Part shown: piece by piece, positions 17,153 to 61,527 of the stretch
Position numbering within the stretch: position 1 is the stretch's first letter
Layout: every line of letters begins with the position of its first letter
DNA from: Gyromitra esculenta
Lineage: Eukaryota > Ascomycota > Pezizomycetes > Pezizales > Discinaceae
Length of the DNA stretch: 64,000 nucleotides
Direction of reading: 5' to 3'
Assembly: GCA_038503075.1 (NCBI GenBank)
Contig: JBCAML010000009.1
Coordinates: 372,001-436,000, forward strand
Translations under genes and position numbers: made by a program
Notes under the pieces: generated by a model
Databases searched by the model: none
What the model was told of the DNA's origin: nothing
The model's input: only the letters and a program-made list of their open reading frames with translations

Positions 17153-17550
17153 TAAGGGTTAGGTTTCGGTTCGGTGACTGTTATGGGTTTCGGGTGTTGA
17201 GTTGGGATAATGTTTTTGTATTTTCGGGTGTTATCAGCTATTTGGATTTGGACTAGGAAAGCGGGGTATTTAAGTGACGGATTTTGTTCATTCTTTGTCT
17301 TCTTCTTCTTCTTTCCTTAAACAACGTTCTCGTTACCTTCTTCTGTATTATTTTGAATACTATCTCGGTTCTACCTCAGAACCTTCGCTGTCGCTGTCCA
17401 CTTTGCTGCCTCTGTTCTCGCCTTGAGACAGAACCCCTCGTAGGACCTGTAGAAAACACTGCACTCTTTGAACGTGTTGATACCTTGTTTAAGTAGCACT
17501 GCTCACCTTCAGGGATACTGAAGGGCTTAACAAGGGACCCAACCGTGAGA
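17153..17550 (+). mobile_element. Solo LTR, family B
   Basis: The 398-bp LTR begins TTTCACGGAT and ends ACCGTGAGA. A perfect 5-bp duplication, CCCAG, lies at 17148-17152 and 17551-17555. It contains a TATTTAA box, a pyrimidine-rich tract and the leader hairpins at 17367-17383 and 17507-17523. It is the transposon insertion closest to the host genes, about 640 bp downstream of DCP1. Confidence 0.93.
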
Positions 17551-17555
17551 CCCAG

Positions 17556-18592
17556 CTGTCGTTTCAATCCTCAACCTTAAAACAGCCATGTGATTCACAA
17601 TGATTCACCATGATAGCATCACGCGACACTACATATTCCTCCCATCCTACTGCAAACCACCTACAGCCACAATATCTAGATGGTTTGTGGAGTCAGTTTG
17701 TGTTCCCGTACCCATAAGCAATAAACAATTTCTTCACCCCAAGAGGACCAACCTGATATTATCTTGAATCTGGTTTTTTTTTTTTGGGCCTAGAAGCATC
17801 TCTATCCTGGTAGAAATACTTGCAAGGATTTCTGTAAGCAATATTCATTCCAACGTTCGTTACAACCATCACATACCATGCTACATGATTATGTGCTTCA
17901 CACACACACACACTTGACCCCAAACACAATAATGTTTACAACTGATTCCCTAACAACTGCTTTCTCGCCAAGAAATTTTTTCTTTGTGGGTGCTTTTGAA
18001 TATGAACATTACAGTGACGGGCGTATAGTTTAGGGTCCAAACACGTTCTCACTACTTCGCACAGTTACCCTACCTCGGAAGTCGTGCTTGGCACAGTGGA
18101 CTGCGAAACATGTACAAAAAATGTTAATATAGTGTTATTTGTACCCGTTATAAAGAGAGAGAAAAGTTAGTTATAGTAGAGCAGTAGAGGATAGAGGACT
18201 GTGTAAAAAATCAACCTCCCACGCCTCGCCATTTCGTCTGTTCTGTGCTTTGACGCAATGAAGCGTGTTATTAGTTGGCACTGTAAAAAGCAATTAAGTC
18301 TTAGACTAGTTGACTAGCCCTCATATTATTCTACTAGAATTGGTAAACCAACTGCCAGTGTCAGACTAAGAAAGTCCGGATTGAACAAGGGTTTGAAAAA
18401 CATGTGGAGACGGAGCTCTACATACAATGTAAGAGGCATTCATCAACAAGCACACGTTTTTACCATAAATGACTATATTGCAAATATTTTTGTGGATCAA
18501 ATGGTAGAAGCAGACGGTGCAGGGGTATTTGTCTTGGGTGTACCCGTTGAAGACTGTGTACCGTCTTGTATTGGTATTGGTTTATCTATAAG
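17556..18592. other. Unassigned sequence between LTRs
   Basis: No gene family or transposon part was recognised. A small frame at 18381-18653 runs into the LTR that starts at 18598 and is not convincing. This piece was originally continuous with 24676-25335, before the LTR at 18598 and its nested element were inserted. Confidence 0.4.
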
Positions 18593-18811
18593 CTCTATTT
18601 CATGGATGGTTGTTTCGTTGATGGTACATGGGTACATGGTTGTTGTGTTTTGATGATTGTTTTTGTGTTTCCATGGATTTCCTATTACAATGAGTCATGT
18701 CTTTGTCATCGAAGGAGTTGGAATGTGATATAAGCGAAGGGCTTTCCCTCTTGTTGTACTTTTCCTTCTTCTTCCCCAAGAACGTCTTCTATTGTTCACT
18801 CTGTATCCTAC

Positions 18812-19210
18812 TCAGGGCGAAGTTTTCCTTTCAAGCTCTCAGGTATCCCCCGAGATAAGCAGTGCTACTTGAAGAAAAAACTAAGAACGAGAGTGTTACG
18901 GATTCCACAGGCTACGAAGTGTCCAAGATAGAGGACTTGAGGACGGCGACAGCGTAAGGTTATGAGCAGATAACCGAGGTTTGTATTGTAAAATACAAGA
19001 GTGTACGATAGAAGACGTTGCTTAAAGAAGAAGGGAAAAGTACAACAAGAGGAAATCCCTTCGCTTATATACCTCATTCCAACTCGTTCACGACAAAGAC
19101 TTGACTCATTGCAACGGAAACCCAAAGAAACATAAGGAATAACAACAACGTAACACAATAGCCTCAGACCCTTATACCCGACAAACCAACGAAAACAGTT
19201 ATCCATGAAA
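18812..19210 (-). repeat. 3' LTR of A1
   Basis: The 399-bp A-family LTR runs, in element sense, from TTTCATGGAT at 19210 down to 18812. The sequence before it in sense direction is a purine-rich tract (about 19211-19223). Confidence 0.9.
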
Positions 19211-19222
19211 AGTACCCCTCCC

Positions 19223-24003: not shown

Positions 24004-24072
24004 GGCGGCGTTGGGTTTTATGTGACAGCGTAAAAAAGCGGGGTAGAGGGTGTGGATGAGGAAGCAACGTAA

Positions 24073-24483
24073 TCTCAAGGGGCGAAGTTTTCCTTTCAAG
24101 CTCTCAGGTATCCCCCGAGATAAGCAGTGCTACTTGAAGAGAAAACTAAGCAACGAGAGTGTTTACGGGATTCCACAGGCTCTACGAAGTGTCCAAGTAT
24201 AGAGGACTTGAGGACGGCGACAGCGTAAGGTTATGAGGTATAACCGAGGTTTGTATTGTAAAATACAAGAGTGTACGATAGAAGACGTTGCTTAAAGAAA
24301 GAAGAAGGAAAAGTACAACAAGAGGGGAAATCCCTTCGCTTATATACCTCATTCCAACTCGTTCGATGACAAAGACTTGACTCATTGCAACGGAAACCCA
24401 AAGAAACATAAGGAACAACAACGTAACACAATAGTCTCGTACCCTTGTACCCGACGAACCAACGAAAACAGTTATCCATGAAA
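24073..24483 (-). repeat. 5' LTR of A1
   Basis: This is a 411-bp A LTR in minus orientation. It is followed in sense direction by the sequence TTACGTTGCTT, the presumed primer-binding site. Confidence 0.92.
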
Positions 24484-25745: not shown

Positions 25746-25803
25746 TTATGTTGCTTCCTAATCTACACCCTCTACCCCACCCCCCCCAACTAAAAAAGTC
25801 ACC

Positions 25804-25824
25804 ATGAGCAACCCTGCCCCTGCC
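25804..25824 (+). pseudogene. gag: First seven codons of A2 gag
   Basis: ATG and six codons of A-family Gag (MSNPAPA) are cut off by the B1 insertion. The rest of a plus-strand A gag resumes at 42081. Confidence 0.75.
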
Positions 25825-30124: not shown

Positions 30125-30534
30125 TCTCAAGGAGCGAGGTTTATCTTCAAGCTCTCAGGTATCCCCCGAGATGAGCAGAGCTACTTGAAGGTAAAACTAA
30201 GCGACAAGAGTATTCACGATGTTCCACAGGCTCTACGAAGTGTTTCAAGTATGTATGACTTGAAGGCGGCGACAGCGAAGGTTATGAGGTATAACCGAGG
30301 TTTGTATTGTAAAATACGAGAGTGTACTATAGAAGACGTTGCTTAAAGAAAGGAGAAGGAAAAGTACAACAAGAGGGGGAATCCCTTCGCTTATATACCA
30401 AGTTCCAACTCTTTCGATGACAAAGACATGACTCACTGTAGTAGAAAACCCATAGAAACGCAAGGAACAACAGCGAAACACGACAACCATATACTCATAC
30501 AATCAATCGGTCAACAAGACTTTTATCCATGAAA
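30125..30534 (-). repeat. 3' LTR of A3
   Basis: This is a 410-bp A LTR. A purine tract (sense GAGGGGGGGCTAC) lies between the pol stop and the LTR start. It differs visibly from the middle LTR, especially in the U3 part. Confidence 0.93.
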
Positions 30535-30545
30535 GTAGCCCCCCC

Positions 30546-33500
30546 TCATAGCCGTGAGCTCCTGCGAACCTTAACCACTTCCTCCCTTGGTTTTCTCGGA
30601 TAGCGTTGGTGAAAAGAATCTACTGCTTCCGTCTCTTCATGATACTCCGCGGGTTCCCAAGTGGGCAATGCATAACCCGTCCATTCGACTAGATATTGGA
30701 GCTTTCCTCGATGGAGGCGAGAGTCCAATATACCTTCGACAAGATATTCCTCATGGTCGTTTACCTTGACAGGTGGAGGCGGTGGAATAATTTGACCGGG
30801 GAGTGGATCAGTGGGGGCTGCTTTGATTAATGAAACGTGAAATACCGGATGGTATTTCATAGACAAGGGTAAGTCTATTTCATAGGCATGCGCAGAAATT
30901 ACTCGTTTCACGGGGAAGGGACCACTCCATTTCCAGTCTAATTTCCTTGAACTCCTAGTCGTCCTCATGTTCTTCATAGATATGAAGACGCGGTCATTGA
31001 CTTTGAAGGAAGGTGCGGGGGTACGGTGCCGGTTAGTACTGGTCTCGAAAATATCTTGTGCTGTCCTCATCTGAGCTCGGAGAAAGTCTCTAAGTTCTTC
31101 CATCTTAGAAGCGAAGAGGTCGGCGTCGAGGGCTTGCGGGGATCGGTCATTGGAGATAATTGAAGTATCGAAACGGGGATGATAGCCGTAGTTGGCGAAG
31201 AAGGGTGTGGCTTTGGTACTGGCTGACTCTTGGTTATTAGCAGCAAACTCAGCAATCGGTAACCACTTTGCCCAGTCGTCTTGTTGGTATGAAACATAAC
31301 AGCGAAGGTATTGTTCCATAACGGCATTAAGACGTTCGGTTTGACCATCTGTTTCCGGGTGGAAAGACGTCGACATGCGAGCAGAGATGTTTAGACGCTG
31401 GCAAAGGTACTTCCAGAACTTAGCAGTAAATTGCGTTCCTCTATCGGACGTGATATGGGAAGGTAGTCCGTGGAGTTTCCAGACGTTTTGGAGGTAGAGC
31501 TCTGCTGTTTGTTCGGCGTTAATGGTGGTATTGCAGGGGATCAGGTGTCGCATCTTTGATAGCCTATCTACCACGACCATTATTGCATCGAAACCGTTAG
31601 AGTCTGGGAGGCCCGTAACGAAGTCCATCGATAGTTCTTCCCAAGGGCGATTTGGGACTGGGAGGGGTTTGAGAACGCCATGAGTGCCAAGGGTATTAGG
31701 TTTTGCTCGTCGGCAGGTGTGGCAGTTTCGGGTGTATCGTCCGATATACTCTCTCATTTTAGGCCAATAAAAATGCCTGGAGATGAGTTCAAAGGACTTT
31801 TCACGTCCTGGGTGACCTGCAGAAGGGGCATCATGGTATCGTTTGAGAATAGACAATCGAAGAGGGTCATGATTAGGGACGTAGAACTTTTGACGGTATA
31901 GAAGATAGCCGTTTATTTCTGTACAGTCGCCGAGGGATATTTCCTTAGACTGTCGTTCACCATTCCTGAGCGCTAGGAGGATTTTTTGTGGGAAAGGGTC
32001 AGCGATATATCCATCATTCATCAGTATTTTAAGGGGGTCATCCAATTCAGCGGGTTCATTTGACAAAGAACCCGAAAACAAACTTAGCTTGGGGTCCAAA
32101 TTCTTCTCCTTCAAGACTACTTGGTGTTGGTGTTGTAGTCTTTCATCCCCTTCTTCAGGGAGATCTCCTGATCTCCGAGTCAGAGCATCCGGCTTTCCTC
32201 CTTGCACTCCTGGTCTGTACGTAATGACAAAGTCGAAACGTGAAAGGTATTCTGCCCATCTGACCTGTCTTCGATTTAATTGCTTGGTCGTCATGAAATA
32301 TTCCAAGTTTTTATGATCTGTAATAACAGAGATGGGGAGTTCAGATCCTTCAAGTTCAGGGCGCCATTCTTCAAAACATCGGATAATGGCTAGTAGCTCT
32401 TTATCATAGATCTCATAGTTACACTCAGCGGGTGAGTGTTTCTTAGAGAAAAATGCCACAGGGTGTAATACGCCGTTATCATCGAGTTGGGAGAGGACGC
32501 CGCCGGAGACGAAGTCAGATGCATCAGATTCAACGAAGATCTTCTTTCGGGGGTCGAAGTGGATAAGTACTGGTGCTTTGGTGAAAGCATCCTTAAGGGC
32601 TTCGAATGCGAGTTCAGCTTCGACCGTCCATTCAAAGATAATACCTTTTTTTGTGAAGGCAGTAAGGGGCGCAGCAAGACGAGAGAATCCTAGAATGAAT
32701 CTTCGATAGAAGTTTGCAAAACCTAGGAAAGCCTGAACATCTTTGACGCATTTGGGTCGGTTCCATTCTCGTACCGCTTTGAGTTTGTCCTCGTCCATTT
32801 TAATTCCTTCAGGAGTAAGGATTAGGCCGAGGTACTTTATCGACTGAACGTGGAATTCACATTTCTCTGGTTTGAGGAGGATATTGTTGGCTTTCAAGGC
32901 GTCAAGGACTTGTCGAACATGTACCTTGTGTTCGGCGAGAGTATCGCTGTATATAAGGATATCGTCGAGATAAGCCGTACAGAAAAGGTCTAAATATTCT
33001 CGGAGGGAGTCGTTGACGAAGCGTTGGAAGGTACCAGGGGCGTTAGTAAGGCCGAACGGCATTACCATATACTCGTATAGGCCATACCGCGTTCGGAAGG
33101 CTGTCTTCCACTCTTCCCCTTCAGCGATACGGATTTGATGAAAGCCGTCACGGAGATCAAGCTTTGAGTACCATTGAGCCTTCGCAAGACGGTCCAGGGT
33201 TTCCTTGACTAAGGGGGAAGTGTATCGGTCTTTGACTGTAAGAGCATTGAGGCCGCGATAGTCGACACAAAGACGAAGGGAACCATCGGGTTTGGCGGCG
33301 AAGAGGACTGGTGAGCCGGCAGAGGAAGAACTAGCGCGGATAAAGCCCTTCTCCAGATTATCCTCGATATATTTTTTCAGGACCAGTAATTCATCGCGGG
33401 ACATGCCATAGAGGGGTCCGAACGGTGGTTCTTTGCCCTCTTGCAAGACGATTTTGTGGTCGTAGGGTCGGCGGGGAGGGAGTCCTTGGGCTTTAGCTTT

Positions 33501-34232
33501 GTCAAACATGTCGAGGTAATCATGGTATTCAGCGGGTATCCTTTGTCTCCACTCTTCTGTAGTAGTCTTGCTATCAAGTACTCTATTGATTTCGTAGAGG
33601 GACATGGAATAAACCTGGATTCCTTTTTTTCTAGCGAGCATGCGGAAACTAGCGGCGCCGATAAAGGCAGCATTGAGCTTGGCTGGAGGAGGGATAGCGG
33701 TAGCCGAGACGACGGGTTGCTTTGGGGCGCAGTGGGTGGTGCAGAATTCAGAATTGAATTCAATGCTTTTATTTGCGAATTGTAGATGAACATCGTGGAG
33801 GTTCATCCAGGGAATGCCGAGTACTAGGGGGTAATGGCCTAGTTTAGTGACAAAGAAGGGAGCTTTCTCTGCATGTTGCTGGATAGATAGATTTAAATGG
33901 CAGAGGTTGGTGATGTCTCCCGAGGCAATTGTTCGACCGTCAATGACTTCTAATTGACGGGGGGTTTTAAGGGGAGATAAGGGCAAGGAATGGTGACGCA
34001 CGAAGTTTTCGTCAATGAAAGCGAACCCTGAGGCTCCGGTATCAAGAAGCGCGTGTGTTTTTATAATTTTATTTTGGTGGGAAAGGCTACAAGAGACTAC
34101 AAAATGCTCCCCGTCCAAATTATCCTCCACACACACATCCGATACCGAGAACCCAGAAATAGAGAACGCTGACAAAGGAAAAAACGGAACCAGAGCAGGG
34201 TCACAAGGCGACTCTGGTTGAACTAGTTTAAA
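30546..34232 (-). CDS. pol: A3 Pol polyprotein, reached by -1 frameshift
   Basis: Translation is expected to slip at 34226-34232 and read 19 codons before the first ATG at 34175, then 1,209 residues without interruption. Numbering from that Met, domains in order are as follows. The aspartic protease has DTGAS at 45-49. Reverse transcriptase has YLDD at 402-405. RNase H has Asp551, Glu593 and Asp620. The integrase zinc finger is His781, His787, Cys818 and Cys821, and the catalytic triad is Asp851, Asp911 and Glu947. A GPY/F-type module (KLDWKWSGPFPVKR) follows, then a C-terminal chromodomain containing YLVEWTGYALPTWEP, which in related elements steers integration to chromatin. It ends VRRSSRL and stops 11 bp before the LTR. 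The Gag-Pol fusion would be about 1,640 residues. All catalytic residues are present, so the enzyme is probably active. Confidence 0.95.
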   Translation of the reverse strand, partial: FKLVQPESPCDPALVPFFPLSAFSISGFSVSDVCVEDNLDGEHFVVSCSLSHQNKIIKTHALLDTGASGFAFIDENFVRHHSLPLSPLKTPRQLEVIDGRTIASGDITNLCHLNLSIQQHAEKAPFFVTKLGHYPLVLGIPWMNLHDVHLQFANKSIEFNSEFCTTHCAPKQPVVSATAIPPPAKLNAAFIGAASFRMLARKKGIQVYSMSLYEINRVLDSKTTTEEWRQRIPAEYHDYLDMFDKAKAQGLPPRRPYDHKIVLQEGKEPPFGPLYGMSRDELLVLKKYIEDNLEKGFIRASSSSAGSPVLFAAKPDGSLRLCVDYRGLNALTVKDRYTSPLVKETLDRLAKAQWYSKLDLRDGFHQIRIAEGEEWKTAFRTRYGLYEYMVMPFGLTNAPGTFQRFVNDSLREYLDLFCTAYLDDILIYSDTLAEHKVHVRQVLDALKANNILLKPEKCEFHVQSIKYLGLILTPEGIKMDEDKLKAVREWNRPKCVKDVQAFLGFANFYRRFILGFSRLAAPLTAFTKKGIIFEWTVEAELAFEALKDAFTKAPVLIHFDPRKKIFVESDASDFVSGGVLSQLDDNGVLHPVAFFSKKHSPAECNYEIYDKELLAIIRCFEEWRPELEGSELPISVITDHKNLEYFMTTKQLNRRQVRWAEYLSRFDFVITYRPGVQGGKPDALTRRSGDLPEEGDERLQHQHQVVLKEKNLDPKLSLFSGSLSNEPAELDDPLKILMNDGYIADPFPQKILLALRNGERQSKEISLGDCTEINGYLLYRQKFYVPNHDPLRLSILKRYHDAPSAGHPGREKSFELISRHFYWPKMREYIGRYTRNCHTCRRAKPNTLGTHGVLKPLPVPNRPWEELSMDFVTGLPDSNGFDAIMVVVDRLSKMRHLIPCNTTINAEQTAELYLQNVWKLHGLPSHITSDRGTQFTAKFWKYLCQRLNISARMSTSFHPETDGQTERLNAVMEQYLRCYVSYQQDDWAKWLPIAEFAANNQESASTKATPFFANYGYHPRFDTSIISNDRSPQALDADLFASKMEELRDFLRAQMRTAQDIFETSTNRHRTPAPSFKVNDRVFISMKNMRTTRSSRKLDWKWSGPFPVKRVISAHAYEIDLPLSMKYHPVFHVSLIKAAPTDPLPGQIIPPPPPVKVNDHEEYLVEGILDSRLHRGKLQYLVEWTGYALPTWEPAEYHEETEAVDSFHQRYPRKPREEVVKVRRSSRL
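34188..34232 (-). promoter_or_regulatory. A3 gag-pol -1 frameshift signal
   Basis: In gag frame the sequence reads T TTA AAC (34226-34232) immediately followed by the gag stop TAG. After a 6-base spacer (34220-34225) an 8-bp perfect stem, AACCAGAG/CTCTGGTT, lies at 34212-34219 and 34188-34195 with a 16-base loop containing GTGACCC. Pol is in the -1 frame. The heptamer is the classical X XXY YYZ type. Confidence 0.85.
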
Positions 34233-35470
34233 GACTCAACTGAGTCTGCTGCATCGAAGGCAGGAAAACGAGGTGGCAAGGGTGGTGGAAAAACAGAGGA
34301 AGCAGGGGGAGCGGCGGGGGCGTTAACAGCAGCTCCCCTCATGGCGGGGCGTTTCGAAGCGGAGGGGCAGTTGGAGAAGATGTGTCCTTCTCCAGCACAG
34401 AACAGGCAGCGGTTGTTGGTCTGTCTCCATGCTTTTTCTTCGGGGGACAGCTTTCTTCTTCCATTGATCTGAACGTAGCGTTGTTCAGGGGCGGGGCGAG
34501 AGGTGGAGGTACGGCCGAAAGAGAGATCCATAGGGACAAGTCCTCCAGGGGCAAAGGAGGAGGAAGCGGGGGTATAGGCGGCGGGGGCGGCAGCAGGGGC
34601 GGTGAATTGTCCCATGGTGTTGCGGGCGGCATTTTTCTTTTCCTCCCTTCTTGCTCGGATTCGGTTATCGAGGCGAAGGAGGAAGGCGCAAAGGGAAGTG
34701 AAGGTGGTGGGGAAGTCGGCGACAGTTACTACCGCTTCCTTTAGCTCGTCCGACATGCCGAACTCAAGGGCATCATTCTTGGCTGACTCATCATAATTGA
34801 GGCGTCCCATGATGCGTTGAAAGTCGGCAAGGTAGGCGGAGAAATCTCGCTTCCCTTGTCGGAGCTGGTGTAATTCACGGCGGGCAGTACCGAGAGGGTC
34901 GGGATCGCCGAAGGCTGTTTCCAGGGCGGTGATCAAATCGGCGGCAGAGTTCCAAGTGGTAGTTCCGTCAGGAAGGACGGAGTGGCGAACTTGTTCGAGG
35001 GCGGCTCCCTCGAGGCGGCTGATAGCATACAATATCATATTGTTGCTGTTGGAGAAGCGGTCGGCATTGACCGAGAGTTTTGATCTGAGTTGCAAAATGA
35101 ACCCAGGGAGTTTATCGCGAGACCCATTGAACTTATCTGGGTCGGGCATCTTATCTGAGCGGCCTCCTTGAGTGTGAGCAGGAGGGGGTGGCGGTGACGG
35201 CGCAGGTGGGGGAGGAGCGGTGTTTTGGAGGCGAGCGACTTCGGCTTCAGCTGCCTGTAGTTGGGATTGGCAAGTATTGAATCTTGCCGTCATGTTGTTT
35301 CTCTCCTGCGTGACCTCTTCGAGTTGTAGGTCGGCGTAGGTGAGGTTTTCGATCCGTTGCTGGTAATGGGATCGAACCTCCTCGTAAGCGGAGGCGAGGT
35401 CTGCATTGGCGGCGGCTTGGAAGTTCTCAAAGGTAGGGAAGGTCCAGGGGGCGGGGGCGGAGGTGCTCAT
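34223..35470 (-). CDS. gag: A3 Gag
   Basis: This is an intact 415-residue Gag starting MSTSAPAPWTFPTFENFQ at 35470. The frame stays open upstream through the primer site, but that part is leader RNA. The N-terminal half is charged and helical (LASAYEEVRSHYQQRIENL). A central Pro-rich linker precedes the Gag core (LPGFILQLRSKLSVN, HQLRQGKRDFSAYLADFQR), and a CCHC knuckle sits at residues 355-368. It assembles the virus-like particle and packages RNA. It ends two codons after the slippery Ser-Leu and is overlapped there by pol. Confidence 0.93.
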   Translation of the reverse strand: MSTSAPAPWTFPTFENFQAAANADLASAYEEVRSHYQQRIENLTYADLQLEEVTQERNNMTARFNTCQSQLQAAEAEVARLQNTAPPPPAPSPPPPPAHTQGGRSDKMPDPDKFNGSRDKLPGFILQLRSKLSVNADRFSNSNNMILYAISRLEGAALEQVRHSVLPDGTTTWNSAADLITALETAFGDPDPLGTARRELHQLRQGKRDFSAYLADFQRIMGRLNYDESAKNDALEFGMSDELKEAVVTVADFPTTFTSLCAFLLRLDNRIRARREEKKNAARNTMGQFTAPAAAPAAYTPASSSFAPGGLVPMDLSFGRTSTSRPAPEQRYVQINGRRKLSPEEKAWRQTNNRCLFCAGEGHIFSNCPSASKRPAMRGAAVNAPAAPPASSVFPPPLPPRFPAFDAADSVESLN

Positions 35471-35528
35471 GGCGGCGTTGGTGGTTTTGTGGCAGCGTAA
35501 AAAGGCGGGGTAGAGAGTGTGGATGAGG

Positions 35529-35537
35529 AAGCAACGT
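35529..35537 (-). promoter_or_regulatory. A3 primer-binding site, self-complementary to the LTR
   Basis: In sense the sequence after the LTR is TT then ACGTTGCTT. The nine bases are the exact complement of AAGCAACGT at 35753-35761 inside the adjacent LTR. No TGG, as would pair with a tRNA CCA end, is present at the LTR boundary. Confidence 0.65.
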
Positions 35538-35539
35538 AA

Positions 35540-35950
35540 TCTCAAGGGGGCGAGGTTTATCTTCAAGCTCTCAGGTATCCTCCGAGATGAGCAGTGCTAC
35601 TTGGATAGAAAACTAAGCGACGAGAGTAATTTACGAGGTTCCACAGGCTCTACGAGGTGTTCAAGTATAGAGGACTTGAGAGCGGCGACAGCGTAAGGTT
35701 ATGAGGTATAACCGAGGTTTGTATTGTAAAATACAAGAGTGTACGATAGAAGACGTTGCTTAAAGAGAGAAGAAAGAAAAGTACAACAAGAGGGGGAAAC
35801 CCTTCGCTTATATACCCATAATCCATCTCTTCGATGACAAACGTATGACTCATTGTAACAAAAACCAAGGAAAACATATCAAACGACAATAAAGCAACGC
35901 GACCAAACATCCATACTATCCCTTAAATGACCTAACAACCATCCATGAAA
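35540..35950 (-). repeat. Middle LTR shared by A3 and A4
   Basis: This is a 411-bp A LTR. It serves as 5' LTR for A3 (primer site at 35529-35537) and as 3' LTR for A4 (purine tract just above 35950). By eye it differs from the A4 5' LTR at roughly 30 positions. Confidence 0.93.
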
Positions 35951-35962
35951 GTACCCCCCCCT

Positions 35963-38900
35963 TTATAACCGTGAGCTCCTGCGAACACTAGCCAGATCCT
36001 CCTTAGGTTTATTCGGGTAACGTTGGTGAAAGAGATCTACTGCCTCAGTCTCTCCGTGATATTCCACAGGTTCCCAGGTGGGCAAAGCATATCCTGTCCA
36101 TTCAACCAAATATAGAAGTTTTCCTCGGTAGAGGCGTGAGTCCAATATACTCTCGACGAGATATTCCTCATGGTCGTTAACTCGGACAGGGGGAGGTGGT
36201 GGAATAATTTGACCGGGGAGCGGGTCAGTAGGGGCTGCTTTGATCAATGAAACATGGAATACCGGGTGGTATTTCATCGATATCGGTAGATCTATTTCAT
36301 ACGCGTGCGCCGAGATTATCTTCTTCACAGGGAAGGGGCCACTCCATTTCCAATCTAACTTCCTCGAGTTTCTAGTTGTTCTCATGTTTTTCATTGATAT
36401 GAAAACCTGGTCATTAACTTTGAATGAGGGGGCAGGGGTACGGTGCTTGTTACTGCTGGTCTCGTAGATATCCTGGGCCGTTTTCATCTGTACTCGAAGG
36501 AAGTCCCTGAGTTCTTCCATCTTCAGAGCAAAGAGGTTGGCATCTAGGGTTTGTGGAGAACGATCATTGGGGACGACGGAGGTATCAAAGCGAGGGTGGT
36601 AACCATAATTGGCAAAGAAGGGGGTGGCCTTAGTGCTAGCTGATTCCTGATTATTGGCCGCAAACTCTGCAATGGGCAACCATTTTGCCCAGTCGTCTTG
36701 TTGGTACGAAACATAGCAACGAAGATACTGTTCCATAGTGGCATTGAGACGCTCCGTTTGGCCGTCAGTTTCCGGGTGAAAGGATGTTGACATGCGGGCG
36801 GAGATGTTTAGACGTTGACAAAGGTGTTTCCAAAACTTAGCGGTAAACTGCGTTCCTCTATCAGAAGTGATATAGGAAGGTAGTCCGTGGAGTTTCCAAA
36901 CGTTCTTAAGATAGAGTTCTGCCGTGTCTTCAGCATTGACAGTAGTATCGCAAGGGATTAGGTGTCGCATTTTTGACAACCTGTCTACTACGACCATTAT
37001 TGCATTAAAGCCATCGGAATCGGGGAGTCCAGTAACAAAGTCCATTGATAGCTCTTCCCAGGGGCGGTTTGGGATCGGAAGGGGCTTGAGGACGCCGTGG
37101 GTACCTAGTGTACTAGGTTTTGCTCGTCGGCAAGTATGACAGTTCCGAGTATACCGTCCAATGTACTCTCTCATTTTTGGCCAATAAAAATGTCTAGAGA
37201 TAAGTTCGAAAGATTTATCACGTCCCGGGTGGCCGGCGGATGGGGCATCGTGGTGTCTTTGCAGAATAAGAAGGCGAAGGGGGTCATGATCGGGGATATA
37301 GAGCTTTTGTCGGTAGAAAAGATGGCCATTTGATTCCGTACAATCGCCCAAGGTAATTTCTTTGGATTGCTGTTCGCCATTCTTAAGTGCTAATAGAATT
37401 TTTTGTGGGAATGGGTCAGCAATATATCCGAGGTTGATCAAGGTTTCGAGGGGGGCATCCAATTCAGCGGGTTCATTTGACAAAGAACCCGAAAACAAAC
37501 TTAGCTTGGGGTCAAGGTTCTTCTCCTTCAAGACTACCTGATGTTGGTGTTGTAGTCTTTCATCCCCTTCTTCAGGGAGATCTCCTGATCTCCGAGTCAG
37601 TGCGTCCGGCTTTCCTCCCTGTACTCCTGGTCGATAAGTGATCACGAAGTCAAAGCGCGAGAGGTATTCTGCCCATCTGACTTGTCTCCGGTTGAGCTGT
37701 TTTGTTGTCATAAAATACTCCAGGTTTTTATGATCAGTGATGACGGAGATGGGTAGTTCTGAACCTTCGAGTTCTGGTCTCCATTCCTCGAAACAACGAA
37801 TGATGGCTAGGAGTTCCTTGTCATATATTTCATAATTACACTCAGCGGGTGAATGTTTTTTCGAAAAGAATGCCACGGGGTGAAGTACGCCATTATCATC
37901 AAGTTGGGAGAGAACACCACCGGAGACGAAGTCAGATGCATCTGATTCCACAAAAATTTTCTTTCGGGGATCGAAGTGAATGAGTACTGGGGCTTTGGTA
38001 AAGGCATTCTTTAGAGCTTCGAATGCGAGTTCAGCTTCAACAGTCCATTCAAAGGTGATGCCTTTTTTTGTAAAGGCAGTGAGAGGGGCAGCAAGGCGAG
38101 AAAATCCTAGAATAAATCTTCGGTAGAAGTTTGCGAACCCTAAGAAGGCTTGTACATCTTTAATACACTTGGGTCGGTTCCAGTCGCGCACCGCTTTAAG
38201 TTTGTCTTCGTCCATCTTGATTCCTTCAGGCGTGAGGATTAGGCCGAGGTATTTTATTGATTGGACATGGAATTCACACTTCTCAGGTTTGAGAAGGATG
38301 TTATTGGCTTTCAGGGCATCGAGGACTTGTCTGACGTGCACTTTATGTTCTGCAAGGGTATCACTATAGATCAGGATATCATCGAGATACGCTGTGCAGA
38401 ATAGGTCCAAGTATTCTCGAAGGGAGTCGTTGACGAAGCGTTGGAAGGTTCCAGGGGCGTTGGTGAGGCCGAATGGCATTACCATGTATTCATACAAGCC
38501 ATATCGGGTTCGAAAGGCTGTTTTCCATTCTTCCCCTTCAGCGATACGAATCTGGTGGAAGCCGTCGCGGAGATCGAGTTTGGAGTACCACTGAGCTTTT
38601 GCAAGGCGATCCAAGGTTTCTTTGATCAGGGGGGAAGTATATCGGTCTTTAACCGTGAGAGCGTTAAGGCCACGGTAATCGACACAAAGGCGGAGGGAAC
38701 CATCGGGTTTGGCGGCGAAGAGGACTGGAGAACCGGCGGAAGATGAACTGGCACGGATAAACCCTTTTTCTAAGTTGTCTTCGATATACTTCTTGAGAAC
38801 TAGAAGTTCATCTCGTGACATACCATAGAGTGGGCCAAATGGTGGTTCCTTGCCTTCTTGCAGGGTGATCTTATGGTCATAGGGTCGTCGGGGGGGGAGT

Positions 38901-39649
38901 CCTTGGGCTTTGGCTTTGTCGAACATATCCAGGTATTCGTGGTACTCGGCGGGTATTCGTTGTCTCCACTCCTCTTTGGTAGTCTTGCTATCAAGGACTC
39001 TATTAATTTCATAGAGGGACATGGAATACACTTGAATACCCTTCTTTCTGGCGAGCATGCGGAAGCTAGCTGCGCCGATAAAGGCGGCGTTTAGTTTTGC
39101 TGGAGGGGGAATGGCGGCGGCTGAGACGACGGGTTGCTTGGGGGCACAGTGGGTGGTGCAGAATTCAGAATTGAATTCAATGCTTTTGTTCGCAAATTGT
39201 AGATGAACGTCATGGAGGTTCATCCAAGGGATACCGAGTACTAGGGGGTAATGGCCTAGCTTGGTGACAAAGAAGGGAGCTTTTTCTGTGTGTTGTTGGA
39301 TAGATAGGTCTAGGTGGCAGAGATTGACAATGTCCCCCGAGGCAATTGTTCGGCCGTCAATGACTTCTAATTGGCGAGGGGTTTTTAGGGGAGATAAAGG
39401 CAGGGAATGGTGACGCACGAAGTTTTCATCAATGAAAGCGAACCCTGAGGCTCCAGTATCAAGAAGCGCGTGTGTTTTTATAATTTTATTTTGGTGGGAA
39501 AGGCTACAAGAGACTACAAAATGTTCCCCATCCAAGTTATCCTCCACACACACATCTGATACCGAAAACCCAGAAATAGAGAACGCTGACAAAGGAGAAA
39601 AATGAACCAGAGCAGGGTCACAAGGCGACTCTGGTTGAACTAGTTTAAA
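35963..39649 (-). CDS. pol: A4 Pol polyprotein, reached by -1 frameshift
   Basis: Second intact Pol, again 1,209 residues from its first ATG (39592), with the same domain order and every catalytic residue listed for A3. It differs from A3 Pol by scattered substitutions, denser in the RNase H-integrase spacer and in the region after integrase. Examples are AEDTAELYL against AEQTAELYL and YITSDRGTQ against HITSDRGTQ. The C-terminal chromodomain (YLVEWTGYALPTWEPVEYH) is present. Two divergent yet intact copies in tandem suggest they did not arise by a very recent simple duplication. Confidence 0.95.
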   Translation of the reverse strand, partial: FKLVQPESPCDPALVHFSPLSAFSISGFSVSDVCVEDNLDGEHFVVSCSLSHQNKIIKTHALLDTGASGFAFIDENFVRHHSLPLSPLKTPRQLEVIDGRTIASGDIVNLCHLDLSIQQHTEKAPFFVTKLGHYPLVLGIPWMNLHDVHLQFANKSIEFNSEFCTTHCAPKQPVVSAAAIPPPAKLNAAFIGAASFRMLARKKGIQVYSMSLYEINRVLDSKTTKEEWRQRIPAEYHEYLDMFDKAKAQGLPPRRPYDHKITLQEGKEPPFGPLYGMSRDELLVLKKYIEDNLEKGFIRASSSSAGSPVLFAAKPDGSLRLCVDYRGLNALTVKDRYTSPLIKETLDRLAKAQWYSKLDLRDGFHQIRIAEGEEWKTAFRTRYGLYEYMVMPFGLTNAPGTFQRFVNDSLREYLDLFCTAYLDDILIYSDTLAEHKVHVRQVLDALKANNILLKPEKCEFHVQSIKYLGLILTPEGIKMDEDKLKAVRDWNRPKCIKDVQAFLGFANFYRRFILGFSRLAAPLTAFTKKGITFEWTVEAELAFEALKNAFTKAPVLIHFDPRKKIFVESDASDFVSGGVLSQLDDNGVLHPVAFFSKKHSPAECNYEIYDKELLAIIRCFEEWRPELEGSELPISVITDHKNLEYFMTTKQLNRRQVRWAEYLSRFDFVITYRPGVQGGKPDALTRRSGDLPEEGDERLQHQHQVVLKEKNLDPKLSLFSGSLSNEPAELDAPLETLINLGYIADPFPQKILLALKNGEQQSKEITLGDCTESNGHLFYRQKLYIPDHDPLRLLILQRHHDAPSAGHPGRDKSFELISRHFYWPKMREYIGRYTRNCHTCRRAKPSTLGTHGVLKPLPIPNRPWEELSMDFVTGLPDSDGFNAIMVVVDRLSKMRHLIPCDTTVNAEDTAELYLKNVWKLHGLPSYITSDRGTQFTAKFWKHLCQRLNISARMSTSFHPETDGQTERLNATMEQYLRCYVSYQQDDWAKWLPIAEFAANNQESASTKATPFFANYGYHPRFDTSVVPNDRSPQTLDANLFALKMEELRDFLRVQMKTAQDIYETSSNKHRTPAPSFKVNDQVFISMKNMRTTRNSRKLDWKWSGPFPVKKIISAHAYEIDLPISMKYHPVFHVSLIKAAPTDPLPGQIIPPPPPVRVNDHEEYLVESILDSRLYRGKLLYLVEWTGYALPTWEPVEYHGETEAVDLFHQRYPNKPKEDLASVRRSSRL
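39605..39649 (-). promoter_or_regulatory. A4 gag-pol -1 frameshift signal
   Basis: Same layout as in A3: heptamer TTTAAAC at 39643-39649, gag stop TAG at 39640-39642, and the stem AACCAGAG/CTCTGGTT at 39629-39636 and 39605-39612. Confidence 0.85.
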
Positions 39650-40887
39650 GACTCAACTGAGTCTGCTGCATCGAAGGCAGGGAAACGAGGTGGCAAAGGT
39701 GGCGGAAAAACTGAGGGGGCTGGAGGTGCGGCGGCGGCATTGGTAACAGCTCCTCTCATGGCGGGGCGCTTGGAGGCAGAAGGGCAGTTTGAGAAAATAT
39801 GACCTTCCCCGGCGCAGAACAGGCAACGATTATTGGTTTGTCTCCAGGATTTCTCTTCTGGAGATAGTTTTCTTCTCCCGTTTATTTGAACATACCGTTG
39901 TTCAGGGGCGGGGCGAGAGGTGGAGGTTCGGCCAAAAGAGAGATCCATGGGGACAAGTCCTCCAGGGGCGAAGGAGGAGGAAGCGGGAGTATAGGCGGCG
40001 GGGGCGGCGGCAGGGGCGGTGAATTGCCCCATGGTGTTGCGGGCGGCATTTTTTTTCTCTTCTCTTCTTGCTCGGATTCGGTTATCCAGGCGGAGGAGGA
40101 AGGCGCAGAGGGAAGTAAAGGTGGTGGGGAAGTCGGCAACGGTTACTACCGCTTCTTTCAGCTCGTCCGACATGCCGAATTCCAGAGCATCGTTCTTGGC
40201 TGACTCGTCGTAGTTAAGGCGTCCCATGATCCGTTGAAAGTCGGCAAGGTAGGCGGAGAAATCTCGCTTCCCTTGTCGGAGTTGGTGCAGCTCACGGCGG
40301 GCAGTGCCGAGAGGGTCGGGATCGCCGAAAGCTGTCTCCAAGGCGGTGATCAAATCGGCGGCTGAGTTCCATGTGGTAGTTCCGTCAGGAAGGACGGAGT
40401 GGCGAACTTGTTCGAGGGCGGCTCCCTCGAGGCGGCTAATAGCATACAATATCATATTGTTGCTGTTGGAGAAGCGGTCGGCGTTAACCGAGAGTTTTGA
40501 CCTGAGTTGCAGAACAAACCCAGGGAGTTTATCGCGAGACCCATTGAACTTATCCGGGTCAGGCATCTTATCCGAACGACCTCCTTGAGTGTGAGCAGGA
40601 GGGGGTGGTGGCGATGGTGCAGGTGGTGGGGGGGCGGTGTTTTGGAGGCGGGCGATTTCTGCTTCGGCTGCTTGCAACTGGGATTGGCAGGTGTTAAACC
40701 TTGCCGTCATATTATTCCTCTCTTGTGTGACTTCTTCGAGTTGGAGGTCAGCGTATGTGAGGTTTTCGATCCGTTGTTGGTAATGGGATCGAACCTCCTC
40801 GTAAGCGGAGGCGAGGTCGGTGCTGGCGGCGGCTTGGAAGTTCTCGAAAGTCGGGAAAGTCCAGGGGGCGGGAGCGGGGTTGCTCAT
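39640..40887 (-). CDS. gag: A4 Gag
   Basis: This is an intact 415-residue Gag starting MSNPAPAPWTFPTFENFQ at 40887. It is nearly the same as A3 Gag and has the same CCHC knuckle. The AA-rich segment after the knuckle differs (GAVTNAAAAPPAP against GAAVNAPAAPPAS). Confidence 0.93.
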   Translation of the reverse strand: MSNPAPAPWTFPTFENFQAAASTDLASAYEEVRSHYQQRIENLTYADLQLEEVTQERNNMTARFNTCQSQLQAAEAEIARLQNTAPPPPAPSPPPPPAHTQGGRSDKMPDPDKFNGSRDKLPGFVLQLRSKLSVNADRFSNSNNMILYAISRLEGAALEQVRHSVLPDGTTTWNSAADLITALETAFGDPDPLGTARRELHQLRQGKRDFSAYLADFQRIMGRLNYDESAKNDALEFGMSDELKEAVVTVADFPTTFTSLCAFLLRLDNRIRARREEKKNAARNTMGQFTAPAAAPAAYTPASSSFAPGGLVPMDLSFGRTSTSRPAPEQRYVQINGRRKLSPEEKSWRQTNNRCLFCAGEGHIFSNCPSASKRPAMRGAVTNAAAAPPAPSVFPPPLPPRFPAFDAADSVESLN

Positions 40888-40945
40888 GGCTGCGTTGGTG
40901 GTCTTGTGGCAGCGTGAAAAGGCGGGGTAGAGGGTGTGGATGAGG

Positions 40946-40954
40946 AAGCAACGT
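40946..40954 (-). promoter_or_regulatory. A4 primer-binding site, self-complementary to the LTR
   Basis: In sense, ACGTTGCTT follows the LTR end after two T residues. It pairs perfectly with AAGCAACGT in the LTR leader, as in A3. Confidence 0.65.
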
Positions 40955-40956
40955 AA

Positions 40957-41368
40957 TCTCAAGGGGCGAGGTTTATCTTCAAGCTCTCAGGTATCCCCCG
41001 AGATGAGCAGTGCTACTTGAAGGGAAAACTAAGCGACGAGAGTGTTTTACGAGTTTCCACAGGCTCTACGAAGTGTTCAAGTATAGAGGACTTGAGGACA
41101 GCGACAGCGTAAGGTTATGAGGTATAACCGAGGTTTGTATTGTAAAATACAAGAGTGTACGATAGAAGACGTTGCTTAAAGAGAGAAGAAAGAAAAGTAC
41201 AACAAGAGGGGAAAACCCTTCGCTTATATACCCATAATCCATCTCTTTGATGACAAACGCATGACTCATTGTAACGGAAACCAAGGGAAACATATCGAAC
41301 AAAATAACAAACCAACACGACCAAACATCCCTGCCATCCGTTAGGCCTCCTAACAACCATCCATGAAA
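40957..41368 (-). repeat. 5' LTR of A4
   Basis: This 412-bp A LTR has the TATATAAG-type promoter and leader hairpins. On its outer side lies the tail of B1 pol. Confidence 0.93.
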
Positions 41369-55288: not shown

Positions 55289-55473
55289 GATCTCGGTTTA
55301 TCGCACGGGTGAGAGTTGGTGCGTAGGTATTGTTGGTCGAGCCACTCTGGAGTGGTTTCAGTGATGGTCTGGGGTCTTCGCGGCGTCAGGCAGGGGAAAA
55401 TTTGCAAGATGGATTGATGAATCCAAGCAATGAGTTCCATAAAAGGAGGTCGAAGTAGAAGGTGTAGAGGAGG

Positions 55474-55482
55474 AAGCAACGT
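55474..55482 (-). promoter_or_regulatory. B2 primer-binding site, self-complementary to the LTR
   Basis: In sense ACGTTGCTT follows the LTR after TT and is the exact complement of AAGCAACGT in the B leader. This is the same site as in family A although the LTRs differ widely. Confidence 0.65.
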
Positions 55483-55484
55483 AA

Positions 55485-55891
55485 TCTCACGGTTCAGTCC
55501 CTCGTTAAGCCCTTCAGTATCCCTGAAGGTGAGCAGTGCTACTTAAGCGAGATACGAACTCGTTTGAAGAGTGCAGTGTTTCTACAAGTTCTACTGGAGG
55601 TATACTTCAAGGCGAAGTATCGACGATGGTTCACAGCGACAGCGAAGGTTCTGAGGTAGAACCGAGATTGTATTTGACGAATACAGCAGAAGTAAAACGA
55701 GAACGTTGCTTAAGGAAAGAAAGAGAAGAAGAACAAAAGAACGAAATCCACCGTTTAAATACCCCGCTTTTCCCAGCAAATCCAATAACCGATGACAACC
55801 GAAATACAATAACATTGTAACAAAAGACCCGAAACCCATAACAGTCGTCGCACCAAAACCTAACCGGGTCCCCAATCCTTAATTCGTGAAA
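55485..55891 (-). repeat. 5' LTR of B2
   Basis: This 407-bp B LTR has a TATTTAA-type promoter, a pyrimidine tract and leader hairpins. Confidence 0.92.
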
Positions 55892-56731: not shown

Positions 56732-57140
56732 TTTCACGGATTAACTAGACTGACGGGTTAGGGTTCGGGTAGTAAAGGTTGTAACGGGTGATGGGTTTTA
56801 TAATGCTTTGTTGTTCGGTTAGGTTTCGGTAATGACTTATGGGATGATAAAACGGGATATTTAAGGAAGGATTTTGGTCGCTTTCGTTTCTCTTCTTCTT
56901 CTTTCCTTAAGCAACGTTCTCGTTTCACTTCTCTTGTATCAAAGTTATAATCTCACTTCGATTCTACTTCAGAATCCTCGCTGTCACTGTGAACCACCGC
57001 TGATACTTCGCCTTGAAGTATATTCATCGTAGGACCTGTAGAAAACACTGCACTCTTTGAACGTGTTGATACCTCGCTTAAGTAGCACTGCTCACCTTCG
57101 GGGATACCGAAGGGCTTAAACAAGGAACTCAACCGTGAGA
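56732..57140 (+). mobile_element. Solo LTR, family B, in A5 pol
   Basis: This 409-bp LTR has perfect duplication TCCGC at 56727-56731 and 57141-57145. Its leader stems ATACTTC/GAAGTAT (57003-57021) and CTTCGG/CCGAAG (57096-57112) are clear. Confidence 0.95.
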
Positions 57141-57148
57141 TCCGCTGG

Positions 57149-57557
57149 TTTCATGGACGGATATTTTGTTGATTGGCTGGAAATATGGGTACATGGGTGT
57201 CGCGTCTTGTTATTGTTCTTTATGTTTCCATGGGTTTCCTGCTACAATGAGTCATGTTTTTGTCATCGAAGGAGTTGGAATGTGGTATATAAGCGAAGGG
57301 ATTTCCCCTCATCTTGTACTTTTCCTTCTTCTTTCTTTAAGCAACGTCTTCTATCGTACACTCTTGTATTTTACAATACAAACCTCGGTTATACTTCATA
57401 ACCTTACGCTGTCGCCGTCCTCGAGTCCTCTACACTCGAACACTTCGTAGAGCCTGTGGAACTTTGTAAACACTCTCGTCGCTTAGTTTTCCCTTCAAGT
57501 AGCACTGCTTATCTCGGGGGATACCTGAGAGCTTGAAGATAAACCTCGCCCTCGAGA
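57149..57557 (+). mobile_element. Solo LTR, family A, in A5 pol
   Basis: This 409-bp LTR has perfect duplication GCTGG at 57144-57148 and 57558-57562. Only eight bases separate it from the B solo LTR. It has the TATATAA box at 57286-57292, the self-priming complement AAGCAACGT at 57339-57347 and the stem TCGAGT/ACTCGA at 57421-57439. Confidence 0.95.
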
Positions 57558-58357: not shown

Positions 58358-60108
58358 GTAGCCCCCCGTCTTAAGTGTGAGCTCCTGCAAACTTTAGGAC
58401 CAGTAGTAGCCGTCGCAGTTAGAAATACATCGAGGACAGTAGTGTCCTGGAGATCTTCCGCAAGCTCCCAAGTAGGATGAGCGTAACCAGTCCACTCGAC
58501 GAGGTATTGTAGTCGTCCTCGATGGGTTCGTTGGTCGAGAATTCTTTTGATAAAATATTCTTCCTGATCATTTACAACAACTGGAGCCGGAGGAGGAATG
58601 ATTTGTCCTAGAAGAGCGTCGTTGGGGGCAGGTTTGAGAAGGGAAACATGGAAAACAGGGTGGTATTTAACCGAAACAGGAAAATCGATCTCATAAGCAA
58701 AAGGGAAAACAATTCTTTTTACCATATACGGGCCCATCCATTTCCAGTCTAATTTTCTCGCATTACAGGTTGTTCAAATGTTCTTCATAGATATGAAGAC
58801 CTTATCGTTGACCTGGTAAGCGGGGACAGGGGTTCGGTCTTTATTGGTAGCCGTTTCATGAATGTCTTGTGCCTTTCGGATCTGGGTGCGGAGGTAATCA
58901 CTTAGTTCTTGCATCTTGCTAGCAAAAGAAGCGGCGTCTAAGTTTTGAGGGGTAGTCTGTGTTGGGATAACGGAAGTATCGAATCGTGGATGGTAACCAT
59001 AGTTCGCAAAGAAGGGGGAGACTTTGGTACTGGCAGATTCTTGATTGTTAGTGGAGAACTCGGCCATTGGCAACCATTTACTCCAATCTTCCTGTTGATA
59101 CGATACGTAGGAACGAAGATATTGTTCCATCACGGCATTGAGTCTTTCTGTTTGTCCATCTGTTTGCAGGTGAAAGGCAGTGGACATTCTGGCTTGGATT
59201 CCGAGACGTTCACAAAGTTCCTTCCAAAAGTGGGCCGTGAATTGAGTCCCGAGGTCTGAGGTAACATAGGAGGGTAACCTGTGAAGTTTCCAGATACGTC
59301 GGAGGTATAAATCGGCCACGTCTCTAGAATTGACTGTTATATTGCAAGGGATTAGGTGTCGCATCTTTGATAAGCGATCCACCACAACCATTATTGCATC
59401 ATCACCATCCGACTCTGGGAGACCTGTGACAAAGTCCATTGAAATCTCTTGCCAAGGGCGGTTTGGGATAGGGAGAGGGCGGAGGACACCTTGGGTTCGC
59501 TGAGTAACTGGCTTTGCCTTTTGACAAGTGTGGCAGTTGCGAACGTATCTGTTGATCGAGTCCCTCATTTTTGGCCAATAATAGCTTCTAGCAAGGAGTT
59601 TGAAGGTCTTATCACGTCCGGGGTGTCCTGCTGCTGGTACGTCATGATGTCTCCAGATAAGTTCTAAACGGAGGGTATTCAGATCGGGGACGTAGATGCA
59701 ATCTCGGTAACATAGTCTTCCATTCTTCTCAGTACATTCACTTAAACTGATCTTTTTTGATTGTTGATCTTTATTCCTTAGTGCTTCGTGTATTTCTTCA
59801 GGAAACTTGTCAGCGATATATCCTTCTAGAAATAGTTTTGTTAGGGGGGCGTCCAATTCAGCGGCTTCATTTGATAAAGAAGCTGACAACAAACTTATCT
59901 TGGGATCAATGTTCTCCTTCTTTAGCACCACTTGACTCTGGTGTGCTAATCTTTCATCCCCTTCCTTGGGAAGATCTCCTGATCTCCTAGTCAAGGCGTC
60001 TGGTTTTCCTCCTTGGCTCCCTGGTCGGTATGTTATCACAAAATCGAAGCGGGATAGGTATTCAGCCCATCTGGCTTGACGACGATTAAGCTGTTTTGTA
60101 CTCATGAA
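58345..60108 (-). pseudogene. pol: B3 pol fragment (RNase H end to chromodomain)
   Basis: Integrase with HHCC and DDE motifs is open in 58774-60114, and the chromodomain part in 58345-58737. A short frame break lies between them near 58740-58770. The 5' end is cut by a B LTR at 60109. The tail RRGATFTD overlaps the LTR as in other B copies. Confidence 0.88.
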
Positions 60109-60403
60109 TTTCACGGATTAAAGATTGGGTATAGGGTTAGGTTTCGGCTCGATAGTTGTTATGGATTTTGGGCTGTTGTATAATGTTATTGTATTTTCTG
60201 TTGTCATTGGTTATGGGATTTGCTAGGAAAAGCGGGGTATTTAAACGGTGGATTTCGCTTGTGCTTTAATCTTTTCTCTTCTCTCTTTAAGCAACGTTCT
60301 CGTTTACCTTCTTTTGTACCTGTCTGAATACTATCTCGGTTCTATCTTAGAATCCTCGCTGTCGCTGTTCACTTCACTGCACTTATCTCGCCTTGAGATA
60401 GAC
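60109..60403 (+). mobile_element. Family-B LTR, split by B4
   Basis: The first 295 bp of a plus-strand B LTR (TTTCACGGATTAAAG onward) stop at the edge of the next minus-strand B element. The rest probably lies beyond the window. Confidence 0.85.
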
Positions 60404-60848
60404 TCTCACGGTTAGTCTCCCGTTAAGCCCTTCAGTATCCCTGAAGGTGAGCAGTGCTACTTAAGCGAGATTCTAACTCGTTTGAAGAGTGCTGTATTTC
60501 TACAAGTTCTACGGGGAGTATACTTCAAGGCGAAGTATCAGCGATGTTCTACAGCGACAGCGAGGGTTCTGAGATAGAACCGAGAATAGTATTAAGATAA
60601 TACAGGTAGAAGTGAACGAGAACGTTGCTTAAGGAAAGAAGAGAAAGGAAAACCTGAACGACCAAAATCCTTCACTTAAATACCCCGCTTTTACAGTAAC
60701 ACCAACCACAACCTAACAACCGAAACACAAAGACATTATCCCGATAACCCAAAATAGACTCAAACAACAAAGAACGTATACAACCGCCCAAAGCAATAAC
60801 AAAACCAGCAACCAGACCACGATTCCTTTTCTAAGTCAATCCGTGAAA
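60404..60848 (-). repeat. 3' LTR of B4
   Basis: This is a 445-bp minus-oriented B LTR with a somewhat longer U3 than its relatives. The left flank is TAGAC; the partner end is outside the window. Confidence 0.87.
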
Positions 60849-61107
60849 GTAGCTCCCCCCTTCAGGCGTGAGCTCCTGCGAACACTAGGAGTAACCAACA
60901 TTGGAATAGATAAAAACTTTTCCAGTGCCGAAGTGTCTGCAAGGTCTTCAGCGGGTTCCCAGGTAGGATGGGCATAACCCGTCCATTCAACGAGGTATTG
61001 TTGTTTCTTGCGGTATGTTCGTTGGTCCAAGATTTTCTCGATGTAATATTCTTCTTGGTCATTGACAATAACGGGCGCCGGTGGAGGAATGATTTGTCCT
61101 GGGAGAG
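60836..61107 (-). pseudogene. pol: B4 pol, C-terminal end
   Basis: This segment covers the chromodomain (YLVEWTGYAHPTWEPAEDL) and tail VRRSSRLKGGATFTD. It is cut at the LPGQII motif by the B5 LTR. The rest of B4 must lie right of B5. Confidence 0.85.
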
Positions 61108-61527
61108 TCTCACGGTTCAGTCCCTCGTTAAGCCCTTCAGTATCCCTGTAGGCGAGCAGTGCTACTTAAGCGAGGTACTAACACGTTCGAGGAGTGCAGT
61201 GTTTTCTACAAGTTCTACAAGGGGTCTATCCCGAGGTGGGATAAGTGCAGCGAAGTGGACAGCGACAGCGAGGGTTCTGAGGTAGAACCGAGATAGTATT
61301 TTAACAATGACAGGAGAAGGTAAACGAGAACGTTGCTTAAGGAAAGAAGAGAGAAAGAACACAAGCGACGAAAATCCATCTCTTAAGTACCCCGCTTTTC
61401 AACCATGATGACTCATAACTAAGAAATAACCGAAAGCAACCGAAACACAATGACATTATAATCCTGAACCGAAAGCCGCAACCCCAACAATATCCTTGAC
61501 CCGATTACTCCCTTATATCCGTGAAAG
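61108..61527 (-). repeat. 3' LTR of B5
   Basis: This 420-bp minus-oriented B LTR has left flank GAGAG. It carries the rare stem variant TATCCC/GGGATA at 61227-61243. Confidence 0.9.

Follow-up and report, generated by a model that had tools for sequence, protein, structure and literature searches.

Chromovirus elements and their LTR leaders

The window analyzed here is a 64-kb stretch of Gyromitra esculenta DNA (contig JBCAML010000009.1 of assembly GCA_038503075.1, positions 372,001 to 436,000). It is crowded with Ty3/gypsy chromoviruses whose long terminal repeats (LTRs), mostly 400–430 bp in length, fall into two families, A and B. Our subject is the leader segment of these LTRs, which very likely represents the 5' end of a genomic RNA that self-primes reverse transcription, as in Tf1. 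Profile searches of the pol frames in the window identified reverse transcriptase (RT), RNase H, integrase, Tf2-1-like SH3 and chromodomain regions. SH3_Tf2-1 exceeded its cut-off in three pol frames, at the integrase end, and Chromo did so in two (37.2 and 38.1 bits); in the full family A pol, Chromo fell slightly under the cut-off (24.0 versus 25.1). A separate listing of SH3_Tf2-1 matches comprised 150 scored entries. Compared by protein only, Ty3/gypsy elements of Morchella sextelata match the queried part of pol at up to 76% identity over 86% and at 71% over 100%, with the same domains. Pol also has relatives elsewhere, among them a Podosphaera aphanis protein named 'Transposon Tf2-9' (73% over 91%). 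For a host gene, too, the closest named match among those listed is an M. sextelata protein (78% identity over 90%), which suggests a host related to the morels.

The LTR termini are TTTCA..TGAGA, not TG..CA, both at window positions 17157–17550 and in 75 LTR copies that lack an adjacent primer-binding site (PBS). Direct repeats of at least five bases stand at exactly these edges in 36 of the 75 copies, four copies show four bases and 35 show none.

For comparison among copies, 295 LTR cores were drawn from the window and 220 loci, of which 36 were without a primer-like start and 7 without a clear LTR end. Removal of identical leaders gave a set of 222 (146 B and 76 A). All leaders come from one genome, and all but a separate group of 20 copies chosen by gag were gathered by motif filters. 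Genome-wide scans covered the 47.1-Mb assembly of 23 contigs that contains the window. A 28-base core pattern around hairpin 3 (H3) gave 1224 + 1262 matches in the genome at two or fewer mismatches and the reversed pattern gave none. No Rfam family matched at gathering score across the 64 kb. In viral contigs, the exact 15-mer was found in 31 stretches and the core plus GGATA, as a loose pattern, in one; these matches are taken as chance.

Putative self-primer, primer-binding site and pseudoknot

Two bases past the 5' LTR lies the PBS, ACGTTGCTT, the exact nine-base complement of AAGCAACGT, which stands just after the pyrimidine tract and begins at the base that follows it. A TATA box is found 50–54 nucleotides upstream of this putative primer in 181 of the 222 leaders, and we infer from that distance that the RNA starts at AAGCAACGT. 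The parts of the leader in a full-length family A element (35540–41368), including the duplexes that we call P1, P2 and P3 and the hairpins H1–H3, are as follows:

40957..41368, minus strand: family A 5' LTR, full-length element; starts TTTCATGG, terminates CCTTGAGA
41169..41177, minus strand: self-primer AAGCAACGT, putative first RNA bases (5' strand of P1); exact PBS complement
41113..41129, minus strand: H1, loop ACCTC; both arms change on 3 branches in A and 6 in B
41077..41095, minus strand: H2, loop CCTCTAT; both arms change on 5 branches in A and 9 in B
41056..41069, minus strand: leader arm of P3, GTAGAGCCTGTGGA, pseudoknot; P3 pairing and double changes
41016..41043, minus strand: stretch holding the 5' arm of the outer stem (P2, U5-IR-like); own arms beat swapped arms, inner pairs show double changes
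40985..41015, minus strand: TAGCACTGCTCA and H3 (loop GGATA); loop counts and double changes
40961..40984, minus strand: stretch holding the 3' arm of the outer stem (P2), to the last four LTR bases; own arms beat swapped arms
40946..40954, minus strand: PBS ACGTTGCTT (3' strand of P1), two bases beyond the LTR; primer complementarity
40927..40940, minus strand: far arm of P3, TCCACACCCTCTAC, downstream of the PBS; P3 pairing and double changes

The corresponding parts in a PBS-bearing B copy, and the other PBSs located in the window, are:

55703..55711, minus strand: self-primer, B copy
55647..55663, minus strand: H1, B copy
55603..55619, minus strand: H2, B copy, loop GCCTT
55581..55594, minus strand: leader arm of P3, B copy, GTAGAACTTGTAGA
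55511..55541, minus strand: TAGCACTGCTCA and H3, B copy
55474..55482, minus strand: PBS, B copy
55455..55468, minus strand: far arm of P3, B copy, TCTACACCTTCTAC
35529..35537, minus strand: PBS of the family A element at 30125–35950
24062..24070, minus strand: PBS beside the A LTR ending at 24073
25748..25756, plus strand: PBS beside the A LTR ending at 25745, with one change (ATGTTGCTT)

The junction is repeated throughout the genome. In a first set of 112 copies, 31 carry bases like TTACGTTGCTTCC (three or fewer changes) after the LTR, 26 of them exactly, and copies with varied flanks in place of PBS-like bases are taken as solo or 3' LTRs. Genome-wide, LTR–PBS junctions number 540 at two or fewer mismatches, and the reversed pattern has none; exact junctions of the A type number 83. 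Folding of 30 copies chosen for having a PBS pairs the nine primer bases with the PBS at a mean probability of 0.73–0.96 in all 30. In shuffled leaders, a nine-base match arose anywhere in 55 and 82 of 20,000 sequences, but only 0 and 3 had it at the first base.

The leader sequence GTAGARCYTGTRGA pairs with TCYACANNYTCTAC, a few bases beyond the PBS, forming a pseudoknot (P3). This third duplex is missing from the nested folds because a pseudoknot is invisible to them. Its commonest versions are GTAGAA..TGTAGA with TCTACA..TTCTAC, GTAGGA..TGTAGA with TCTACA..TCCTAC, and GTAGAG..TGTGGA with TCCACA..CTCTAC. On a tree of 104 of 107 copies (one dropped for lack of the leader arm, two for lack of the far arm), P3 has six double-sided changes compared with a null mean of 0.14 and maximum of 2 in 1000 simulations, and 99.0% of its cells are paired (null maximum 98.2%).

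The same features are found in the copies selected by gag alone, a choice made independently of the PBS. From 94 gag matches, 20 were taken that lie on the plus strand and start at residue 5–7 (two more such matches were left out); every one is related to the family A gag. Their PBS is intact in 20 of 20 and the primer exact in 18 of 20, and P3 forms 12 of 12 pairs in the 19 of 19 that retain the leader arm. In copy L260 the PBS is intact, but the leader upstream of TAGCACTGC has been replaced by unrelated sequence.

Covariation of the hairpins and the outer stem

A sequence-only reading of the window had described strings of hairpins in the LTR leaders, with stems that covary between copies and loops that are nearly fixed. 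All 15 of the hairpins it named are present where it placed them and with the arms it gave, except that at 47030 the H1 loop, GCCTT, is not close to the expected ACCTC. The near constancy of the loops is borne out, and loops are more constant than stems among the leaders. Of the 146 B leaders, 136 have GGATA as the H3 loop, as do 75 of the 76 A leaders. Among scored leaders, ACCTC is the H1 loop in 76 of 143 for B and in 56 of 72 for A, and the H2 loop is GCCTT in 113 of 143 for B and CCTCTAT in 52 of 71 for A; the search for H1 and H2 loops allowed only a few substitutions from the expected words, so these counts are biased toward them.

Compensatory change was counted on trees of 127 of the 146 B and 63 of the 76 A leaders, near-duplicates having been dropped. 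A double change was scored for each tree branch along which the two bases of a pair are both replaced yet still pair; the null was 300 simulations with independent columns, the same tree and the same number of changes per column. Double changes exceed this tree-aware null in H1–H3 and the inner outer stem, and are weakest in H3 and the outer stem of A. Within B, H1 has 6 (null mean 0.26, maximum 2), H2 has 9 (0.24, maximum 2), H3 has 9 (0.17, maximum 2), the inner outer stem has 3 (0.13, maximum 3; p = 0.003) and the next outer-stem segment has 5 (0.87, maximum 5; p = 0.003). The corresponding numbers for A are 3 for H1 (p = 0.003), 5 for H2 (reached in 0 of 300 simulations), 1 for H3 (p = 0.043) and 1 for the inner outer stem (p = 0.05), with null means of 0.04–0.25; the next outer-stem segment has none among the 63 leaders.

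When every 6-bp antiparallel window was scanned with no helix specified in advance (100 simulations), H2, H3 and H1 ranked as the top three in B, with 11, 9 and 6 doubles and family-wise p values of 0, 0 and 0.08. In A, H2 was best (6 doubles; p = 0) and H1 had 3 (p = 0.79). Wobble G–T cells outnumber A–C cells in most helices. A further hairpin predicted by folding near the leader start, GTATT/AATAC, had no double changes in A or B and was dropped. The variant TAGCTCTGCTCA (L141, L143, L146, L147, L150, L189 and L193) mostly occurs with the H3 stem CCTTCTG/CAGAAGG, with L152 and L170 as exceptions.

With bulges allowed, the outer stem extends from H3 to the LTR edge. Arms from the same copy pair better than arms swapped between copies, at −16.24 versus −12.81 kcal/mol in B and −12.25 versus −10.80 kcal/mol in A, and the own-arm mean was matched by 0 of 2000 permutations, in a statistic that ignores relatedness. 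For the whole structure in an alignment of 107 copies, 98.1% of 4806 cells are paired, and double-sided change affects 22 of 45 pairs, all outside P1. This alignment has a covariation score of 0.277, compared with 0.117 after shuffling and at most 0.069 when the partners are slid.

Proposed self-priming, its alternatives and the surrounding elements

In the Tf1/sushi group of chromoviruses, the RNA 5' end is described as a 'pretzel' of three duplexes, one between primer and PBS and two between PBS-adjacent and leader bases (PMC10085805). The first 11 bases of Tf1 pair with the PBS and are released by an RNase H cut between bases 11 and 12 (PMC7175516), and the same self-priming mechanism has been proposed for Tj1 (PMC4600332). 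As these accounts describe Tf1, Tf2, Tj1, Tosmo1-3 and Tcry1 (PMC10085805, PMC4600332, PMC7175516), the elements in the window resemble them in being chromodomain elements, in having a PBS just past the LTR that is complementary to the putative RNA start, and in combining a central primer–PBS duplex with two duplexes between PBS-adjacent and leader bases. Both further duplexes are present here: P3 covaries, and P2 covaries in its inner pairs in B and pairs best with its own arms. P1, P2 and P3 fit the three duplexes of the pretzel, with P2 as the presumed second duplex. P2 also resembles the retroviral U5-IR stem in reaching the LTR edge beside the PBS, and Tf1's own structure was named after U5-IR, according to a title in a reference list; unlike the retroviral stem, P2 has a cap made up of a conserved motif and H3 and would function with no tRNA primer. 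Differences from Tf1, as described in these sources, are a primer match of nine rather than 11 bases (PMC7175516), a two-base gap between the LTR and the PBS match, and H1, H2 and the capped TAGCACTGCTCA junction. H1, H2 and the junction look additional to the pretzel, although Tf1 may have counterparts. In the fission yeast relatives, pretzels were identified by eye in predicted folds (PMC10085805), and a limited literature search turned up no covariation study of self-priming LTR retrotransposons.

In this reading, the genomic RNA would start at AAGCAACGT and its first nine bases would fold back to pair with the PBS, two bases beyond the LTR. P1 would be held in place by both the long outer stem P2, which reaches the LTR edge and is capped by TAGCACTGCTCA and H3, and the pseudoknot P3, between the leader and bases after the PBS, with H1 and H2 as branches between the primer and P3. 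By analogy with Tf1, the RNase H of the element, a domain present in its pol, would cut after the ninth base, and the freed end would be extended into the LTR as the start of minus-strand DNA. The element would then probably use the start of its own mRNA, not a borrowed tRNA, to begin copying into DNA. Fixed loops on drifting stems suggest a binding role for the hairpins, possibly for Gag. We raise as a tentative extension, possible rather than probable, that H1 and H2 with their near-fixed loops and the TAGCACTGCTCA–GGATA hairpin junction form a further conserved RNA domain beyond the pretzel, a predicted Gag/RT platform that would couple packaging to self-priming and was retained in both LTR families while the stems drifted.

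Several observations weigh against self-priming or the fold proposed for it. Support for the RNA start and the fold comes from sequence comparison, with the start placed by the TATA distance. P1 has no double-sided change in any copy, and its constancy is partly selection because most copies were gathered by primer and PBS motifs. The LTRs terminate in GAGA, whereas those of fission yeast Tf1/sushi elements end in CA (PMC10085805), a trait reported for those members and not for the group at large. Pair-breaking changes in P3 (13) equal the null (13.0) rather than falling below it, and swapped outer arms beat own arms in 20% of B and 28% of A comparisons, again in a test that ignores relatedness. 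The claim that the outer stem changes on both sides holds for its inner part in B and, weakly, in A; the next segment has no double change in A, and in B it breaks as often as the null (39 versus 32). One parallel control window in B had 7 doubles (p = 0.01). Covariation of H1–H3 is upheld by the tree-aware counts in the 222-leader set, but an all-pairs G-test found no significant canonical pair in 54 B and 30 A sequences, a result that we read as lack of power, not absence. A helix-level G-scan was non-specific, ranking H2 of B first but also passing non-pairing and parallel windows in B and passing nothing in A, and a pairing-aware scan found H2 of B to be the sole significant helix.

Other explanations account for parts of these data. 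The hairpins could serve mainly as a packaging or dimerization signal bound by Gag, with the primer–PBS match a separate feature of the leader. The greater constancy of loops is what protein or loop–loop contacts would produce, and nested folds bring the primer to the PBS without needing H1 or H2. However, the outer stem and P3 directly flank the PBS and P3 covaries with bases outside the LTR; Gag binding is hypothetical, and such a role would be compatible with self-priming. As a replacement for self-priming we regard it as unlikely. Alternatively, the inverted repeats might function at the DNA level, in protein binding or recombination for instance, or might be traces of gene conversion between copies, and the dense nested copies make LTR–LTR recombination, which lies outside a single-tree model, likely. 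Against this, the changes preserve antiparallel pairing but, in all cases save one, not pairing with slid or parallel partners, G–T wobbles exceed A–C cells in most helices, and P3 joins the leader arm to a strand outside the LTR; we consider an action in DNA or an origin by gene conversion very improbable.

Priming by a tRNA or tRNA fragment, with a chance match to the RNA start, finds some room in the at least 62 host tRNA matches, which are listed by place only and not by sequence comparison with the PBS. The bases expected opposite the CCA end of a tRNA are TGG, and the 13 bases that follow the LTR (TTACGTTGCTTCC) contain no TGG. Shuffled leaders seldom match over nine bases at the first position, and all 20 gag-chosen copies retain the PBS. 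Priming by a tRNA appears improbable in the extreme.

Self-priming in the manner of Tf1 remains our preferred reading, and it partly supports the interpretation in the sequence-only reading. There is support for selection having acted on the RNA structure during the active period of the elements, and among the roles suggested there, reverse transcription is the best supported. Recombination of two ancestral sequences only does not explain the paired variants, because B alone has at least three frequent H2 stems (66, 40 and 17 leaders) and more than two stem versions thus exist. The hairpins had not been recognized as a known cis element; we read them as branches of a 5' leader that self-primes as in the Tf1/sushi group. 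Two of the strands lie past the LTR end, which is why the self-primer, PBS and pseudoknot duplex escaped notice. The roughly 2,500 core-motif matches in one genome, of which 222 leaders were examined, amount to a natural mutation experiment, and the compensatory changes that back the pseudoknot duplex and the hairpins lead to a base-by-base model of how the RNA 5' end would reach its priming site.

The element cluster has further features of its own. Positions 30125–41368 hold two family A elements with one LTR in common (35540–35950), in the order LTR-internal-LTR-internal-LTR; the two units are ∼85% identical, which indicates that this is not a fresh duplication. At 56743–57557, a B LTR and an A LTR lie a few bases apart within an internal region and their direct repeats overlap. 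Several LTRs in the window abut end to end, a hint of preferred insertion beside LTR ends. The gag-like and pol-like open frames of the element at 35540–41368 (35963–40986) overlap by 13 bases in different frames, in contrast to the single frame of Tf1. Beside the cluster, at 8524–16513, are host-like frames for an ARMT1-like phosphatase, ankyrin repeats, a CAF1-like ribonuclease and a DCP1-like decapping protein.

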